This document shows positions 3,095 through 58,064 of a DNA stretch of 64,000 nt, piece after piece. The stretch is from NCBI GenBank assembly GCA_945949045.1, contig CAMFDG010000002.1, forward strand, positions 1 through 64,000, given 5' to 3'. A program made the translations under genes and the position numbers. The notes under the pieces are model-generated. The model was not told the origin of the DNA. It worked only from the letters and a program-made list of their open reading frames with translations, and did not search any database. Positions within the stretch are counted from its first letter, which is position 1, and the number at the start of each line of letters is the position of its first letter. The stretch is from an uncultured Lachnospiraceae bacterium. Its GTDB lineage: Bacteria > Bacillota > Clostridia > Lachnospirales > Lachnospiraceae.

Positions 3095-3685
3095 TTAAGT
3101 GTTCATTACAGTGTTGTATTTCATAATAAATAGTTCCAGGGTTTCCTTCAGCACATCCATCTGTACCTTCAGATAGAACTCATCCTCGAACAGTGCGTAG
3201 TGCACGCAGGCTCTGACCAGTATAAAAATCAGCGGCGTCAGCTTTTCGTGGGGAATCCCCAGCTTGCCTTCTAAGCTTTTTGCGTATTCGGTATAACGTT
3301 TATCTACGCCTGCAAAGAATTTCTTACCGTATTCCCTGTATTTCGGGTGGGTGTAGACCTGATACATCAGGCGGTATTTCTTTCCGTGCTTTTCTGCCGT
3401 CCAGTAGGGGATCTCGTCGATGAACCGCCACAAGTCCTCCACATCTGTGGGAGCTTTCGCCATAAAGTCATCCTCCACCTTACTCATGCAGTATTCGGTG
3501 GACTGGATGATCAGGTCGTCCAAATCCTTGAAATATGTATAAATCATAGATGTGTTATATCCGCAATGCTTCGCCAGGGTACGAATGCCGGTGCCGTGTA
3601 AGCCCAGCTCGGCAAAGCCGTCAAAGCACGTTTCCATCAGCTCCATCTTTTTTTCGTTCCATTGTTCTTCTGTATAATTCGCCAC
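3095..3685 (-). CDS. TetR/AcrR family transcriptional regulator
   Basis: The protein is 196 residues, normal for the family. The N-terminal helix-turn-helix reads GLHGTGIRTLAKHCGYNTSM followed by IYTYFKDLDDL, which is the TetR recognition-helix pattern. The rest is an all-helical ligand-binding/dimerisation domain with no recognisable ligand signature. The start is a GTG at 3685 with AAAGGAGG seven bases upstream. A short inverted repeat (AACG-TT-CGTT, 3707-3716) lies just upstream of the ribosome site and could be an autoregulatory operator; that is inference. The neighbouring upstream gene (AAA-ATPase-like) is on the same strand about 90 bp away, and no efflux pump is adjacent, so the regulated target is unclear. 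Confidence 0.85.
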   Translation of the reverse strand: MANYTEEQWNEKKMELMETCFDGFAELGLHGTGIRTLAKHCGYNTSMIYTYFKDLDDLIIQSTEYCMSKVEDDFMAKAPTDVEDLWRFIDEIPYWTAEKHGKKYRLMYQVYTHPKYREYGKKFFAGVDKRYTEYAKSLEGKLGIPHEKLTPLIFILVRACVHYALFEDEFYLKVQMDVLKETLELFIMKYNTVMNT

Positions 3686-6326: not shown

Positions 6327-6718
6327 TTGGGCTCCGGCAACACTTTTCTACTATGTGTCCACGAAATCATCTCTCATCCTCTCATTTTTCCTTTATATGG
6401 GCGATGGCAACAACTTTTGCCCCATGCGCCCACAAACTTTTCCATTATCCGCCCATGCACCCTTTCATATGGGCGATGGCGCACACTTTTCCACTATGCG
6501 CCCACAAATTTCTCTATAACCCGCCAATTTACCCTTTTATAGGGGCGCCGGCAACGACTTTTACGCTATGCGCCCATCTTCACCACGAAATTTGAAGGAG
6601 CGGCAAAAATTATGGGCGCATAGAGAATTTCTTTTCTCCACCGCCCATAATAGCCGATAAAATGCAGATTCATCACTCAATTGTGGGCGCATAGAAAATT
6701 TTTGTTTCCCATCGCCCA
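6327..6718. repeat. Array of six 35-bp palindromes, 71-72-bp period, with orientation flip
   Basis: Units begin at about 6327, 6398, 6470, 6541, 6613 and 6684, each about 35 bp with arms TGGGCG and CGCCCA. The first four read GGGCGATGGC...TATGCGCCCA (the first is degenerate). The last two read TGGGCGCATA...ATCGCCCA, which is the opposite orientation. The array fills the apt-nagB intergenic gap. No gene or promoter was recognised inside it. A second array with the same unit length and period lies at 24556-24877. Confidence 0.85.
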
Positions 6719-13720: not shown

Positions 13721-14500
13721 CCTATCAAGTGAATGAAAAAAGAGCATCCAAATGTGGTAAAATTAAGGTGTTCAAGACTTAATAAAAACCAACAAAGGAG
13801 CCCTTTATGAGTATTGTAAACACCTTATCATTAGAAAGCAATAGACAGATTAAAATAAATTTTGATGGAGGAGATTTATCCTCCGATGCAGGCTTACTTC
13901 TCATCAAAGAATTCGTAAGCAAACTTGGTATTGATAAGCTTTTAGGCAAAGCTTTCAAGACCAATGATCCTGCATTATTCAGATATCATACGGATCAGAA
14001 AAACCTGCTCCAGATGATATATATGATCATTGCCGGTTATTTCGAAGATGACGCTTCCGATGAACTGACAAACGATCCTGTATTCAAGTCTGTACTTGAA
14101 AAAGATGCCCTTGCATCACAGCCTACGGTATCAAGATTCTTTAACCGTATGGATGAAGATACCTTAAACCAGTTCCTCGCAATTGGCAGAGTACTTCGTA
14201 AGTGCTGAAGATTGCTGCAAAAGTAGTTCATTCAGCAAGATATATCACTTTCAAGCTGTGTAGCAGCTGCCCTTATAAGAAAGAGTTCTATGAGACACTT
14301 TCAAATATCAGCGAGCTTCATGTACAGCTGGAATAGCAACTATTAACGAACCTTGACAGCTTAATAACCATCTTGAAATCTGTCACAGGGATACTATACC
14401 CTTTTGACAGGTTTATGGACTACGGTTATGGCTGCAAGGATCAATTTTTTAATTCATGGCTCAGTTTTTAGTTCAGATGCTGTTCCGTGAATAATTCAGG
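13721..14500 (+). mobile_element. IS1380-type insertion sequence remnant (internally deleted)
   Basis: The element begins with CCTATCAAG and ends with ATAATTCAGG, so both ends carry the CCT...AGG termini expected for this family. The inverted repeats are poor but share GTGAAT/ATTCAC and AGCATC/GATGCT. It is 780 bp, about half the usual length, and contains a broken transposase. The flanking bases do not form a duplication, so the insertion is old or rearranged. Confidence 0.65.
13807..14335 (+). pseudogene. IS1380-family transposase remnant
   Basis: The first 133 codons (13807-14208) read as the N-terminal part of an IS1380-type DDE transposase: INFDGGDLSSDAGLLLIKEF, YHTDQKNLLQMIYMIIAGYFEDD and SQPTVSRFFNRMDE. 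The frame stops at 14206-14208. A different frame then gives KIAAKVVHSARYITFKLCSS, CPYKKEFYETL and ISELHVQLE before a stop at 14333-14335, which I recall as the usual C-terminal end of these transposases. The catalytic middle is absent, so the element cannot move by itself. A GGAGCC ribosome-like site precedes the ATG. Confidence 0.75.
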
Positions 14501-14579: not shown

Positions 14580-14937
14580 GTAGTGGGATGAAATTCCATA
14601 TTTTTTATTTCGCCCGCTTGATTTTTCAACGTAGTACGGGTGAAATTCTCATTTCTCAGATTCCGCCCGTACAATGAGTCCGCTTGGTACGGGTGAAATT
14701 CATATTTTGAGGTTTTCACCCGTACGATCAGTCTGTTGTGTACGGGTGAAATTCCCAATTTGTAGTTTTCACCCGTACGATGTGCCTGTTGTGTACGGGT
14801 GGAATACGCATTTTGCAGTTTTCACCCGTACGATGTGCCTGTTGTGTACGGGTGAAATTCTCGTTTCGCAGATTTCACCCGTACAATGAGTCTGCTTGGT
14901 ACGGGTGAAATACGCATTTTGCAGATTCCACCCGTAC
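14580..14937. repeat. Array of six 39-bp palindromes, exact 53-bp period
   Basis: Full units occupy 14634-14672, 14687-14725, 14740-14778, 14793-14831, 14846-14884 and 14899-14937. Each starts GTACGGGTG and ends CACCCGTAC or CGCCCGTAC. Spacers are exactly 14 bp, of two types (AATGAGTCYGCTTG and GATGTGCCTGTTGT-like). A degenerate unit precedes at about 14580-14619, with a further trace near 14534. The arms pair perfectly or nearly so while the central bases vary. The array lies between an IS remnant and the LytTR gene. A second array with the same period and related arms lies at 21531-21776. Confidence 0.92.
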
Positions 14938-15037
14938 AGAGAGTCTCCGCGAATAAATATATATTCGCGGGAACAGAAATAGAAAAGATAATACTGCAAA
15001 TATCTCCATACTTTCAAGCATTGCCATTCTTTTGTCC

Positions 15038-15498
15038 TTATATATTAAATGCATCTCGAAAACTATGATAATAGCTTCTTGTCACTTCCAAATTTCTTCC
15101 ATCTGCCATGATCAGAACAAATTTCATGGACAACGATGGGATAATATGCTTCACTTTTTTCTTGGCAGTAATCACCGATTTGCTGATTCTTGTAAATCTT
15201 GCAGGATCAAGCATTCCCTCGAGCCGGTATAAAGGATCAAGTCCGTAAAAGACACCATTCTCTGAAGTAATCTCAATTTGATGACCATAGCTTTCTATAT
15301 ACAGAATATCGTCGATGGAAATATAACTCCTGTCATCATTTTCTTTCTTTTTAGCTGCCAGATGTCCTGCATAAGTATCTTTCTGGATCAGAATGAATTC
15401 GGCATCATCGTCAGTTTCGATTCCCTTTTCCTCCAGGAGCTGTCTGACTTCTTCCATTCTCCCATTCTTTCATCTGCAACCGCCAGCCGTATTTTCAT
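15038..15498 (-). pseudogene. LytTR-domain DNA-binding protein with probable frameshift
   Basis: The C-terminal 100 residues form a LytTR DNA-binding domain: YISIDDILYIESYGHQIEI, FTRISKSVITAKKKVKHI and ADGRNLEVTRSYYHSFRDAF. An ATG at 15498 preceded by GGAGGTGGG encodes MKIRLAVADER, the expected start, but is out of frame with the rest. The open frame of the main domain begins at 15457 without a properly spaced ribosome site. A single missing base near 15458-15465 would restore one protein of about 152 residues. Stand-alone LytTR proteins like this usually autoregulate together with a small membrane gene; none is next to it here. Either a pseudogene or a sequencing error. Confidence 0.65.
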
Positions 15499-15681
15499 GA
15501 ACCCACCTCCTTTTGCTTTGATCTTCCCTTTTTGTTGAACCCATTATAGGAAATCGCCTTTTCAAATACAAGAACTTCCTCCCAAGTTGCACCTTTTCAT
15601 GCGTAAAATGCAAAAGACTATTGCCCCGACAATTTTACCAAAAAAATTTACCCACCCTCCAAAAACCTCCCTATTTTTACT

Positions 15682-21530: not shown

Positions 21531-21776
21531 TACGGGTGGTTTTTATGTTTTTCCTTTTTCGCCCGTATGTTTTCACCCTTGTGTACGGGTGATTATTATG
21601 TTTTTCCATTTTCGCCCGTAATCTTTCGTTCTTTTGTACGGGTGATTTTTATGTTTTCCTTTTTCGCCCGTATGTTTTCATCCTTGTGTACGGGCGATTT
21701 TTGTGTTTTCCCTTTTTCGCCCGTTGGTCTTCATCATTGTGTACGGGCGGTTTTTATGTTTTCCCTTTTTGCCCCA
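21531..21776. repeat. Array of five 36/37-bp palindromes, 53-bp period
   Basis: Units start at 21531, 21584, 21637, 21689 and 21742. Each begins TACGGGTG or TACGGGCG and ends CGCCCGTA or close, with a T-rich centre (TTTTTATGTTTTTCC-like) and 16-bp spacers of the form TGTTTTCAYCCTTGTG. Period and arms match the array at 14.6 kb, while the centres differ. The array sits between the binding-protein and permease genes of the cobalamin-riboswitch set. Confidence 0.9.
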
Positions 21777-21825
21777 TATCAAGCCCTGCAGGATAAGACA
21801 GGACAAGATAAAATGAAACAAGGGC

Positions 21826-22090
21826 CAAAAGGTCGGAACTTGTTTCCATCTTGCAGGACAAAATCTCTGACATATTGACCCCCACACACATGAGAACTGT
21901 CATCAATCTTTGATTGATGACCCTGTGATTTTCCCTGGAAAATCAACTGATTCCGAATGTATGTAGAATTGCGGGGTGCAAGATATCCGGTAGATGTCTG
22001 CTCTGCGCCGACAGGAGCAAAGTGTAGACTTGCATAGCAGCGGAGCAATTCGTGTATCAAATGAGAGAAAAAACACCTTTTGACCCTCAT
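21826..22090 (-). repeat. Dispersed intergenic repeat element (about 265 bp)
   Basis: On the minus strand it opens with ATGATATGAGGGTCAAAAGG. It then carries GAATTGCTCCGCTGCTATGC, the perfect hairpins GATTTTCC-AG-GGAAAATC and CATCAATC-AAA-GATTGATG, and ends near GTCAGAGATTTTGTCCTGC. Its opening recurs at 45-62 and more weakly at 23476-23495, and opening plus middle at 1735-1820. I recall similar intergenic sequence in other Lachnospiraceae. A 103-codon ORF across it looks spurious. The flank 22091-22185 holds nothing recognisable. Confidence 0.6.
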
Positions 22091-24555: not shown

Positions 24556-24877
24556 TGGGCATTCCAGGAGATTTTTTCTATATGCGCCCATACCTTCTTT
24601 ACGACTTCCGCTTATTTTATAGGTTCCAGAACATTTTGAATCACTTTTTTCATATACGCCCATATATCTACAGAACTTTATGATTTTTCCTCGGAATATG
24701 GGCGCATGAAGAATAATTACTCTCCACCGCCCATTTATCCAGCAATCTGACACTCCTATCGTCGATGTCCTGGGCGCATGGAGAATAATTGTTCTCCACC
24801 GACCATTTATTTGTCAATCTGACGCTCCTAACATCCATGGCCTGGGCGCATAGAAAATTTTCATTCCGAATCGCCCA
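24556..24877. repeat. Array of five 35-bp palindromes, 72-bp period, with orientation flip
   Basis: Units are 24556-24590, 24628-24662 (degenerate), 24699-24733, 24771-24805 and 24843-24877. The first two end in the TATGCGCCCA-type arm; the last three begin TGGGCGCAT. Unit orientation therefore inverts once, as in the 6.3-kb array. The 37-bp spacers of the last three units are also alike (CAATCTGACRCTCCTA shared). The array lies between cbiK and the lipoprotein gene. Confidence 0.88.
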
Positions 24878-26439: not shown

Positions 26440-26640
26440 TGTTCCACTCCTATGCTGCAGGCAGGTCTCCTGACTTCGCGGATCAAAGCTCATGACCGTC
26501 TTCCCGGTTTCCCAGTGACATCTATGGTCCCTCGCTCCCCGCTCACAGTGACGAGTTCGTACAGGATTTGCACCTGTTTCCCTTTTCATTCTGCCTGTAA
26601 GAAACTGTTCTGTTTCTTACAGCAAAACACCTGCATTTGT
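26440..26640 (-). ncRNA. Cobalamin riboswitch upstream of cbiK
   Basis: Minus-strand conserved blocks appear in order: AACAGGTGCAAATCCTGT, ACGAACTCGTCACTGTGA, CGGGGAGCGAGGGACC, TGTCACTGGGAAACCGGGAA and GAAGTCAGGAGACCTGCC. These are the hallmark segments of the adenosylcobalamin-binding aptamer, including the B12-box region. High cobalamin would repress the cbiK and transporter set through the terminator at 26262-26300. Ends are approximate. Confidence 0.95.
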
Positions 26641-26748
26641 AACCATAACACAATTCTGCTTATTTGTAAACAAAACAGTTCATTTTTTCGTGCTTTACAC
26701 CTCCCGTCGAATCTCCTAAGTCCTATCACATTTTCCCGATTTCATGAA

Positions 26749-56603: not shown

Positions 56604-58064
56604 TCAAAGTAGAAGGGCCTGCCGCAGCTTTTCCCGCAGCAATTGATCTGTTGCCCACCGGGAGCCTGCAGCCAGGCCCCCTTTTTCTTCCGGAATCAGA
56701 TTTCTGTTTTCATCTTCAAAGTATTTCCGGCTGATAAATCTGCATCGAATCGGAAGCTTCTTCTCTCCGGCATCCGGTGTGGCCGGATCCGGCTGCGTTG
56801 AGTCCGGTGTGGTGGGATCCGGTGTGGTTGGGTCCGGCGTGGTCGGGTCCGGCGTCACTGGGTCCGGCGTCACTGGGTCCGGTGTGACTGGGTCCGGTGT
56901 GGTCGGGTCCGGCGTCACTGGGTCCGGCGTCACTGGGTCCGGCGTCACTGGGTCCGGTGTGGTCGGGTCCGGCTCCTGTTCCTTCCACACCGCATACAGA
57001 TCTACCTGTGGACTGTGCTTGATGATCCAGCTTCCCCTAATAATGGAATTCACAGAATAATCCTTTTCCTTTGCGCCAGCCGCCAAAGCCCAGCCCAGCA
57101 TATCATTTTTCTCATTCCACCCGGTATTCTGAAAATGCATATTCTCATTTCCATAAGCCACCTTCTGATAGGCGGTTACGGTATCCCCGGAAGATTTATT
57201 CCGATGAAACACAATCGTAAGCTCCTTTGCTCTGGCCACGGCGTTCCACCTCTGATTTCCGTTGACACAGGTGCTTATCTCCGGAAATCCATAACGTTCC
57301 GGTCCCTCCCACCGGTCAAACTCATAGCCGGACTCTGTTTTTGCCTTTAATACCACATTGGTTCCGAAACAGTATTCGCCCCCTCCCGATACAGAAGCAA
57401 TTCCGGTCTCTTTTCTCACCTGCAGCGTAAAAAACAATCCCTGTACCGGTTTATCAAAATAATTATAAAAGGATTGTCTCGCCGATGCACTCCAGTTTGC
57501 AGCATTGGAGATTCCGCTGTAGGTGGTATAGACACTGCCGGAGGTCGGCCCGCTGTCATTCATTGCCCCCTTTGCCCTTCCGTTTTTTACAACGACCATA
57601 CACGCGTCAAATACAATGCTCAGATTTCCCTTGTTCATGGCATTCAGCGCCGCATCATTCATTCTCCGTTTCAGATTTCCCAGGGGGAGCACATACAGAT
57701 TATATTCATAATTGGATTTCGTAGTGACATCTGTTTTATACATGTAAGAGCCGCCCAGCTTAAAATACAGTGTCTGCAGGGTGGAACCCGACCGGTTCTG
57801 AATACGAACCTTCCAGCCAATGGTCCGGTATCTGGTATTGGTGCTGGCCTTGGCCGCCTTTGTAGCACAGTATATTTCCCCATCCGTATTCGAAGTGGGC
57901 CGGAATACCACATCATTTTCATAGCTCCGAAAATACGAATACGCGTTATCCCATACACTTGCCATCACTGTCTGCTGACAGACCGGCAGCATCCCGAAAA
58001 GCATGGCAAGAACCAGACTTACAGACAGACTTCGGATTATCCTCTTTTTTCGTACGCTTCTCAT
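56604..58064 (-). CDS. Secreted surface protein with PDPVT repeats, Tad-locus associated
   Basis: The protein is about 486 residues with a signal peptide (RSLSVSLVLAMLFGML, cleavage near VMAS). Residues about 40-230 form an unrecognised domain (NAYSYFRSYENDVVFRPTSN). A second part has VSGGGEYCFGTNVVLKAKTE and GYEFDRWEGP, like the repeats of bacterial Ig/List-Bact domains, and QVDLYAVWKE. A Pro-rich stalk of about twelve 5-residue units (DPVTP/DPTTP, 56800-56975) is followed by about 50 residues (RFISRKYFEDENRNLIPEEK, SRWATDQLLREKL). No sortase motif or C-terminal helix was found. The next gene upstream overlaps by 4 bp, so it ends the Tad transcript and may be a pilus-associated surface or tip protein (inference). 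Confidence 0.75.
   Translation of the reverse strand: MRSVRKKRIIRSLSVSLVLAMLFGMLPVCQQTVMASVWDNAYSYFRSYENDVVFRPTSNTDGEIYCATKAAKASTNTRYRTIGWKVRIQNRSGSTLQTLYFKLGGSYMYKTDVTTKSNYEYNLYVLPLGNLKRRMNDAALNAMNKGNLSIVFDACMVVVKNGRAKGAMNDSGPTSGSVYTTYSGISNAANWSASARQSFYNYFDKPVQGLFFTLQVRKETGIASVSGGGEYCFGTNVVLKAKTESGYEFDRWEGPERYGFPEISTCVNGNQRWNAVARAKELTIVFHRNKSSGDTVTAYQKVAYGNENMHFQNTGWNEKNDMLGWALAAGAKEKDYSVNSIIRGSWIIKHSPQVDLYAVWKEQEPDPTTPDPVTPDPVTPDPVTPDPTTPDPVTPDPVTPDPVTPDPTTPDPTTPDPTTPDSTQPDPATPDAGEKKLPIRCRFISRKYFEDENRNLIPEEKGGLAAGSRWATDQLLREKLRQALLL
56800..56975 (-). repeat. 15-bp tandem repeat encoding the PDPVT/PDPTT stalk
   Basis: Units of GTCACTGGGTCCGGC and GTGGTCGGGTCCGGC type (plus strand) repeat about twelve times. 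Variants alternate between Val-Thr and Thr-Thr, giving a higher-order pattern (T, V, V, V, T, V, V, V, T, T, T). The stretch is prone to slippage in whole codons. Confidence 0.9.

Follow-up and report, generated by a model that had tools for sequence, protein, structure and literature searches.

What kind of element is formed by a tandem series of six closely similar palindromes lying between an insertion sequence (IS) remnant and a LytTR-domain gene, and does selection act on it as an RNA fold or as DNA? The series, referred to here as array 1, lies in a window of 64,000 nucleotides (the whole stretch of DNA analysed) from an uncultured gut Lachnospiraceae bacterium whose genome, G000, comprises 2.16 Mb in 78 contigs and is 80% complete. 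Array 1 and its flanks contain the following features.

13807 to 14208, plus strand: truncated DDE_Tnp_1_4 transposase (Pfam), the IS remnant to the left of array 1
14582 to 14619, no strand assigned: decayed seventh unit, TAGTGGGATG...CGCCCGCT, seen by direct reading; the repeat finder reports a 68% copy at 14581 in the 53-bp register
14634 to 14672, minus strand (the A-rich strand of the array consensus): unit 1 of array 1, by reading and repeat finder
14687 to 14725, minus strand: unit 2 of array 1, by repeat finder
14740 to 14778, minus strand: unit 3 of array 1, by repeat finder
14793 to 14831, minus strand: unit 4 of array 1, by repeat finder
14846 to 14884, minus strand: unit 5 of array 1, by repeat finder
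14899 to 14937, minus strand: unit 6 of array 1, by repeat finder; A and T are equal in number in its loop
14673 to 14686, 14726 to 14739, 14779 to 14792, 14832 to 14845 and 14885 to 14898 (region 14673 to 14898), no strand assigned: spacers of array 1, by direct reading
15038 to 15457, minus strand: LytTR-domain protein gene to the right of array 1, its 3' end facing the array in a convergent context

Direct reading and the repeat finder agree on six 39-bp units at 14634-14937 with start-to-start distances of 53, 53, 53, 53 and 53 bp, and the TRF call spans 14634-14946 with a period of 53. The unit length, constant period, 14-bp spacers and position between the IS remnant and the LytTR gene are as a preliminary description had them, and its six units are real, but the array extends further than the 14634-14937 given there, with a decayed seventh unit upstream that begins at 14582 in the same register. 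The arms are 9 bp long, GTACGGGTG and CACCCGTAC, except in unit 1, where the right arm is CGCCCGTAC. The five spacers, described as being of only two types, do fall into two broad types, but comprise four distinct sequences. A coding origin of the array is rejected by reasoning only, as 53 is not a multiple of three and a continuous frame is impossible. The orthologous site of array 1 was not recovered in the congener G178 or in G188, because their similarity upstream of the PEPCK gene stops at about position 15628 of the window.

The units within an array resemble one another, as they would if array 1 were a single local tandem duplication without function, and the preliminary description had proposed a search of related genomes for the unit and its period. 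In this search, arms, spacing and A-runs proved to be shared by many loci and by three genomes, a recurrence that refutes a single local duplication and leaves it with practically no probability. In G000, the pattern TACGGGYG-N13..26-CRCCCGTA has 58 exact matches per strand and the reversed-pattern control has none. Places of at least 50 of the 58 are among the matches listed, and the arrays were built from these listed places, with arms of up to five mismatches accepted beside a better seed. There are 15 arrays of at least two units, two of them in the window and the others on contigs C9, C12, C17, C19, C20, C21, C36, C53 and C56. Arrays lie at the starts of C9, C17 and C36 and at the ends of C12, C53 and C56; because C12 and C17 share their terminal unit type, and the terminal units of C9 and C56 are similar, the 15 arrays may be 13, with two split by contig ends. 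The G000 copy number is a lower bound, and draft genomes likely undercount arrays since several lie at contig ends.

The second array in the window belongs to the same class, with arms as in array 1 and a different loop.

21531 to 21778, minus strand: array 2, five units (the last with three arm mismatches), periods 53, 53, 52 and 53

Array 2 is flanked by Peripla_BP_2 and FecCD genes of one orientation. It is adjoined by a further repeated stretch at window positions 21818-22090, of which the part at 21818-21974 recurs next to a G178 array (L168, 7761-7914); by eye, a stretch of similar appearance precedes an ABC-transporter gene in G188 (L171).

The distribution among other genomes is patchy. 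Within the genus, the array pattern occurs in two of 62 genomes, G000 and G178; across the family, it occurs in one of 150 genomes, and the single-unit pattern in one of 397 genomes from 334 genera, the positive genome being G000 in each case and both samples being without G178. A third carrier is contig CALWMW010000120.1 (L072) of the uncultured Lachnospiraceae bacterium E04__bin340 (genome G457), which has a GC content of 55%, the same arms, 53/52-bp spacing and two alternating loop types, and gives no blastn match to the other loci examined. Among at least 116 stretches matched in a contig scan whose pattern was over-loose, L072 alone showed two units at array distance, and further carriers may have been missed. 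G457 has four exact units on three contigs, and one of its spacer types (L283, L287, L288) appears by eye to be an imperfect palindrome, unlike the G000 spacers examined.

Each unit has a loop 21 bases long (20 in roughly one unit in four) flanked by the inverted octamers TACGGGYG and CRCCCGTA, and three A-runs lie on one strand of this loop, in G457 as in the other two genomes. Measured from octamer to octamer, units in the G000 and G178 arrays are 37 bp long in 82 of 119 cases and 36 bp in 32. Among 96 successive unit pairs (23 arrays in these two genomes) the period is 53 in 66, 52 in 22, 51 in six and 50 in two, and the gap between the octamers of adjacent units is 16 in 86. The A-rich strand is on the array's majority side in 108 of the 112 units with no more than three arm mismatches, with three units opposed and one tie.

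In a comparison of the 18 array consensuses, out of 23, that are 37 bp long, A-runs recur near unit positions 9-12, 17-20 and 24-28 and are separated by variable bases. Loop column information in these 18 is 18.8 bits versus 11.8 +/- 0.5 in 2000 within-loop shuffles, none of which reached it, and spacers are also more alike between arrays than shuffles (6.9 versus 2.1 bits); such tests overstate independence, since units within an array share descent. In the third genome, A is present at 83% of run columns versus 30% of other loop columns, a difference that 0 of 5000 shuffles reach; these units too are not independent, so that the counts show a shared pattern and not a probability. The run columns (9-12, 18-20 and 25-28) were fixed from the consensuses, in a script written after the units had been seen, and were applied to 11 units of 37 bp in sequence pieces of 54-55% GC, omitting the three-mismatch units (L072 at 18, L286 at 1396) and a 32-bp unit (L072 at 333). 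Classical curved DNA by helically phased A-runs is unsupported, the A-runs being about 8 bases apart and not a helical turn. The earlier proposal that constant spacing could place bound proteins on one face of the helix is possible for array 1, whose 53 bp make about five turns, but exact phasing does not hold generally, because periods of 50-53 occur and those of a related class of palindromes, class B (described below), are mostly 71 bp (about 6.8 turns).

Pairwise differences within array 1 amount to 2.1% in the arms, 27% in the loops and 27.5% in the spacers, and the corresponding means over arrays are 11.9% (n=23), 23.1% (n=21) and 24.6% (n=18). Of 21 arrays, 17 show less diversity in the arms than in the loops and four show as much or more; arms are less well kept in most G178 arrays; their conservation between arrays is partly built in, as the units were found through their arms. 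The low arm diversity, together with recurrence in three genomes, supports the earlier view that the arms are conserved and the unit is under selection.

Since the octamers can pair, the units could act as an RNA element whose transcript would fold into a series of hairpins with A-rich loops, protecting mRNA 3' ends or attenuating downstream genes. The location beside gene 3' ends suits this reading, as does array 2, which lies between binding-protein and permease genes of one orientation, and the folds are very stable, with a z of about -13 for array 1 on either strand; any inverted repeat would show a strong fold of this kind. The minimum-energy folds of array 1 pair several units together and do not form six separate hairpins. 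Covariation, the check suggested for selection on the fold, is absent: in the six units of array 1 none of 13 pairs changes on both sides, a result that does not exceed 500 shuffles, and the claim that loop-side bases vary in a paired way falls with it. At the variable arm position, the 63 G000 units have T..A in 36, T..G in 13, C..A in nine and C..G in five, the last versus 4.0 calculated under independence, and such independent arm bases are what is expected of two separately read DNA half-sites. C..A does not pair in those nine units, nor, on the other strand, does its counterpart in the 13 T..G units. The 37 G178 units have T..A in 17, T..G in eight, C..A in two, C..G in seven and other combinations in three, and the seven C..G pairs are more than the roughly four of 34 expected under independence, five of the seven coming from the single locus L168. 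Mirrored loop positions are not generally complementary and A-runs face A-runs; the pairing frequency of facing positions is close to that in shuffled loops, and at two of ten positions it is above the shuffles (P about 0.01). With these results, and with the strand and terminator observations given below, the RNA reading is an unlikely one.

Stable folds and the regular repeat-spacer appearance also recall a CRISPR-like array or a string of intrinsic terminators. Spacers recur within arrays, identically in some, unlike those of a CRISPR array, and no intrinsic terminator (a GC-rich hairpin followed by a T run) is present inside 14582-14937, which also counts against the RNA element; either identity for the array is very improbable. 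Rfam 15 has no match in array 1 at gathering score, with only sub-threshold matches to microRNA families.

Most arrays adjoin a gene 3' end. Codon-scored gene calls at 17 loci, with two orthologous pairs and the split C12/C17 array each counted once, give seven convergent, nine tandem and one divergent context, or six, ten and one if a frame of about 173 codons beside the L153 array, which starts 46-52 bases beyond it on the plus strand and has no Pfam match, is a gene. The gaps in a 464-kb sample, as determined with a simpler, different caller, are convergent in 24, tandem in 128 and divergent in 29 of 181. L256, whose gene call runs over the array, is left out of the context count, as are L152a, L162 and L163, which lie at contig ends; at L164, L165 and L166 the context depends in part on frames that are short or score low. 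The A-rich strand coincides with the sense strand of transcription at six tandem loci and opposes it at three (seven and three with L153), showing no clear preference for an RNA strand, which further weakens the case for a transcript-level role. Exact units are outside ORFs of at least 90 aa in 27 of 36 cases, though such ORFs cover 90% of the sequence examined; nine of the 36 are inside such an ORF, and frames of 80-155 aa overlap arrays.

At two loci, an array occupies the site in one species and the site is empty in relatives. Locus L158 has five units in G000, and the genes flanking it lie almost end to end in G186, G152 and G155; in G188 they are on different contigs, and in G178 extra genes and a single decayed unit lie between them. 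At L157, the matched flanks are 527 bases apart in G000 versus 280 in G188 and about 400 in G186, and by eye there is no array in the sequence of either relative. The flanks of the empty sites are too diverged for reading a target-site duplication, which together with terminal inverted repeats of an IS present in the genome is the criterion for a MITE. We note that the histidine-kinase frame at L157 in G000 ends inside the last array unit (3184-3199); by eye, the frame in G188 and G186 seems to stop earlier, and the insertion may have replaced its C-terminus. Loops are alike between the arrays at L158, L161, L164 and L167 (L161 and L167 being orthologous places), and likeness between arrays at several loci speaks for dispersal.

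Such filled and empty sites are also in keeping with a selfish repeat without a host role, in which arms and A-runs would be what a putative mobilising enzyme needs. Its patchy presence (two of 62 genus genomes, and G000 alone among 397 family genomes) and the lineage-specific sister class B point in the same direction. Yet a Y1 (RAYT) transposase, Y1_Tnp (PF01797), was not found in the G000, G178 and G188 assemblies (80, 90 and 82% complete), though it is positive in 22 of 62 genus genomes and in five of 14 control genomes, and no ends common to all subtypes were found. Plasmids and phages gave no match and viral contigs contain no array; 60 viral contigs have one isolated unit match each, none with a second unit at array distance, and these are read as chance, as judged without a shuffled control. 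We therefore regard a purely selfish repeat as doubtful.

Class B palindromes, TGGGCG...CGCCCA, form a related, separate class that occurs twice in the window.

6398 to 6718, no strand assigned: class B palindromes, by repeat finder
24699 to 24877, no strand assigned: class B palindrome array with a 72-bp period, by repeat finder

The pattern TGGGCG-N21..27-CGCCCA has 133 matches in G000, 85 in G188, one in G178 and 0-8 in other genomes of the genus, with 0-2 for the controls. Class B is similar to the class of arrays 1 and 2 (class A) in its tandem organization, length, G-run arms and coexistence in G000, and differs in having other arms, a mostly 71-bp period and a near-absence from the class A carrier G178. 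Spacings and pairing were determined with 58 class B units: the 26 tandem spacings below 120 are 71 in 19, 62 in three, 70 in two, and 72 and 51 once each, and a seventh pair forms in 17 of 18 units of the 36-bp form versus 8.5 expected and in 12 of 38 units of the 35-bp form versus 13.3 expected. Outside ORFs of at least 90 aa are 21 of the 26 class B units examined in this respect. More generally, G000 looks rich in tandem-repeat elements, with repeats at L228, L233, L239, L246 and L247 of periods 62, 87, 76, 65 and 62, several with palindromic stretches. The window also contains a cobalamin riboswitch at 26443-26649 on the minus strand (Rfam RF00174, 106 bits), and a 15/60-bp tandem repeat at 56773-56973, whose periods are multiples of three, is possibly a repetitive protein region.

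Class A resembles the REP and BIME elements in being short extragenic palindromes in many copies (58 exact units in G000), clustered at regular spacing and patchily distributed among species. Described REP families come with a RAYT transposase and, according to passages of PMC6006769, are mostly from Proteobacteria. In the definition given there for TnpAREP-associated REPs, a GTAG or GTGG lies 0-2 nt 5' of the stem, the basal stem is 7-20 nt, and the loop is 2-5 nt or an additional stem. The class A stem of 9 bp is within this range, but its loop of 20-21 nt is about four times too long, there is no GTAG or GTGG tetranucleotide beside the stem, which itself begins GTAC, and the conserved loop A-runs and 53/52 period are further differences. 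BIMEs are regularly spaced REPs of alternating orientation, as described in a part of PMC2817692, whereas 108 of 112 class A units are on the array's majority strand. The REP literature compared also includes portions of the RepRanger survey (PMC12306157). In the literature searched, with subscription papers mostly outside its scope, no published description of this palindrome family was found. Binding of gyrase, IHF or Pol I is a further criterion for BIMEs. The malE-malF intergenic REP is reported to shield mRNA 3' ends or to attenuate genes downstream, and array 2 is similarly placed between a binding-protein gene and a permease gene in one orientation, but consists of five units of another class. 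The family works like a REP-type element, but we do not file it as a REP because the transposase, GTAG guide, loop length and alternating orientation do not fit. As judged from sequence, this is a new family resembling REP repeats, whose units are probably protein-binding sites rather than a selected chain of RNA hairpins.

A plausible scenario, which we favor tentatively and at somewhat less than even confidence, is that class A is a lineage-specific REP/BIME-like extragenic palindrome whose units are putative DNA sites for a protein. The unit would disperse to intergenic sites, and each copy would then grow or shrink locally by tandem duplication, a proposal under which loops and spacers would resemble each other within an array and differ between most arrays. 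With octamers and A-runs both kept, the unit would most simply be the DNA site for a protein that reads the octamers as an inverted pair. An array could then form a short nucleoprotein stretch at a gene 3' end, where it would stop or weaken read-through, or protect transcripts that converge there.

A more specific proposal, distinctly unlikely as it stands, is that the 53-bp unit, with inverted TACGGGYG octamers on either side of a core of three A-runs, is a bipartite DNA site for a dedicated protein that would assemble on gene-end arrays and organize transcription or the nucleoid in this lineage; class B would then have a protein of its own, and one genome would hold two parallel systems. Since class A occurs in G000 and G178 and class B in G000 and G188, complete genomes would allow the cognate proteins to be sought through gene presence. 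Dense, constrained palindromes in Lachnospiraceae genomes where the search gave no Y1 transposase also raise the question of what else disperses and maintains such elements.
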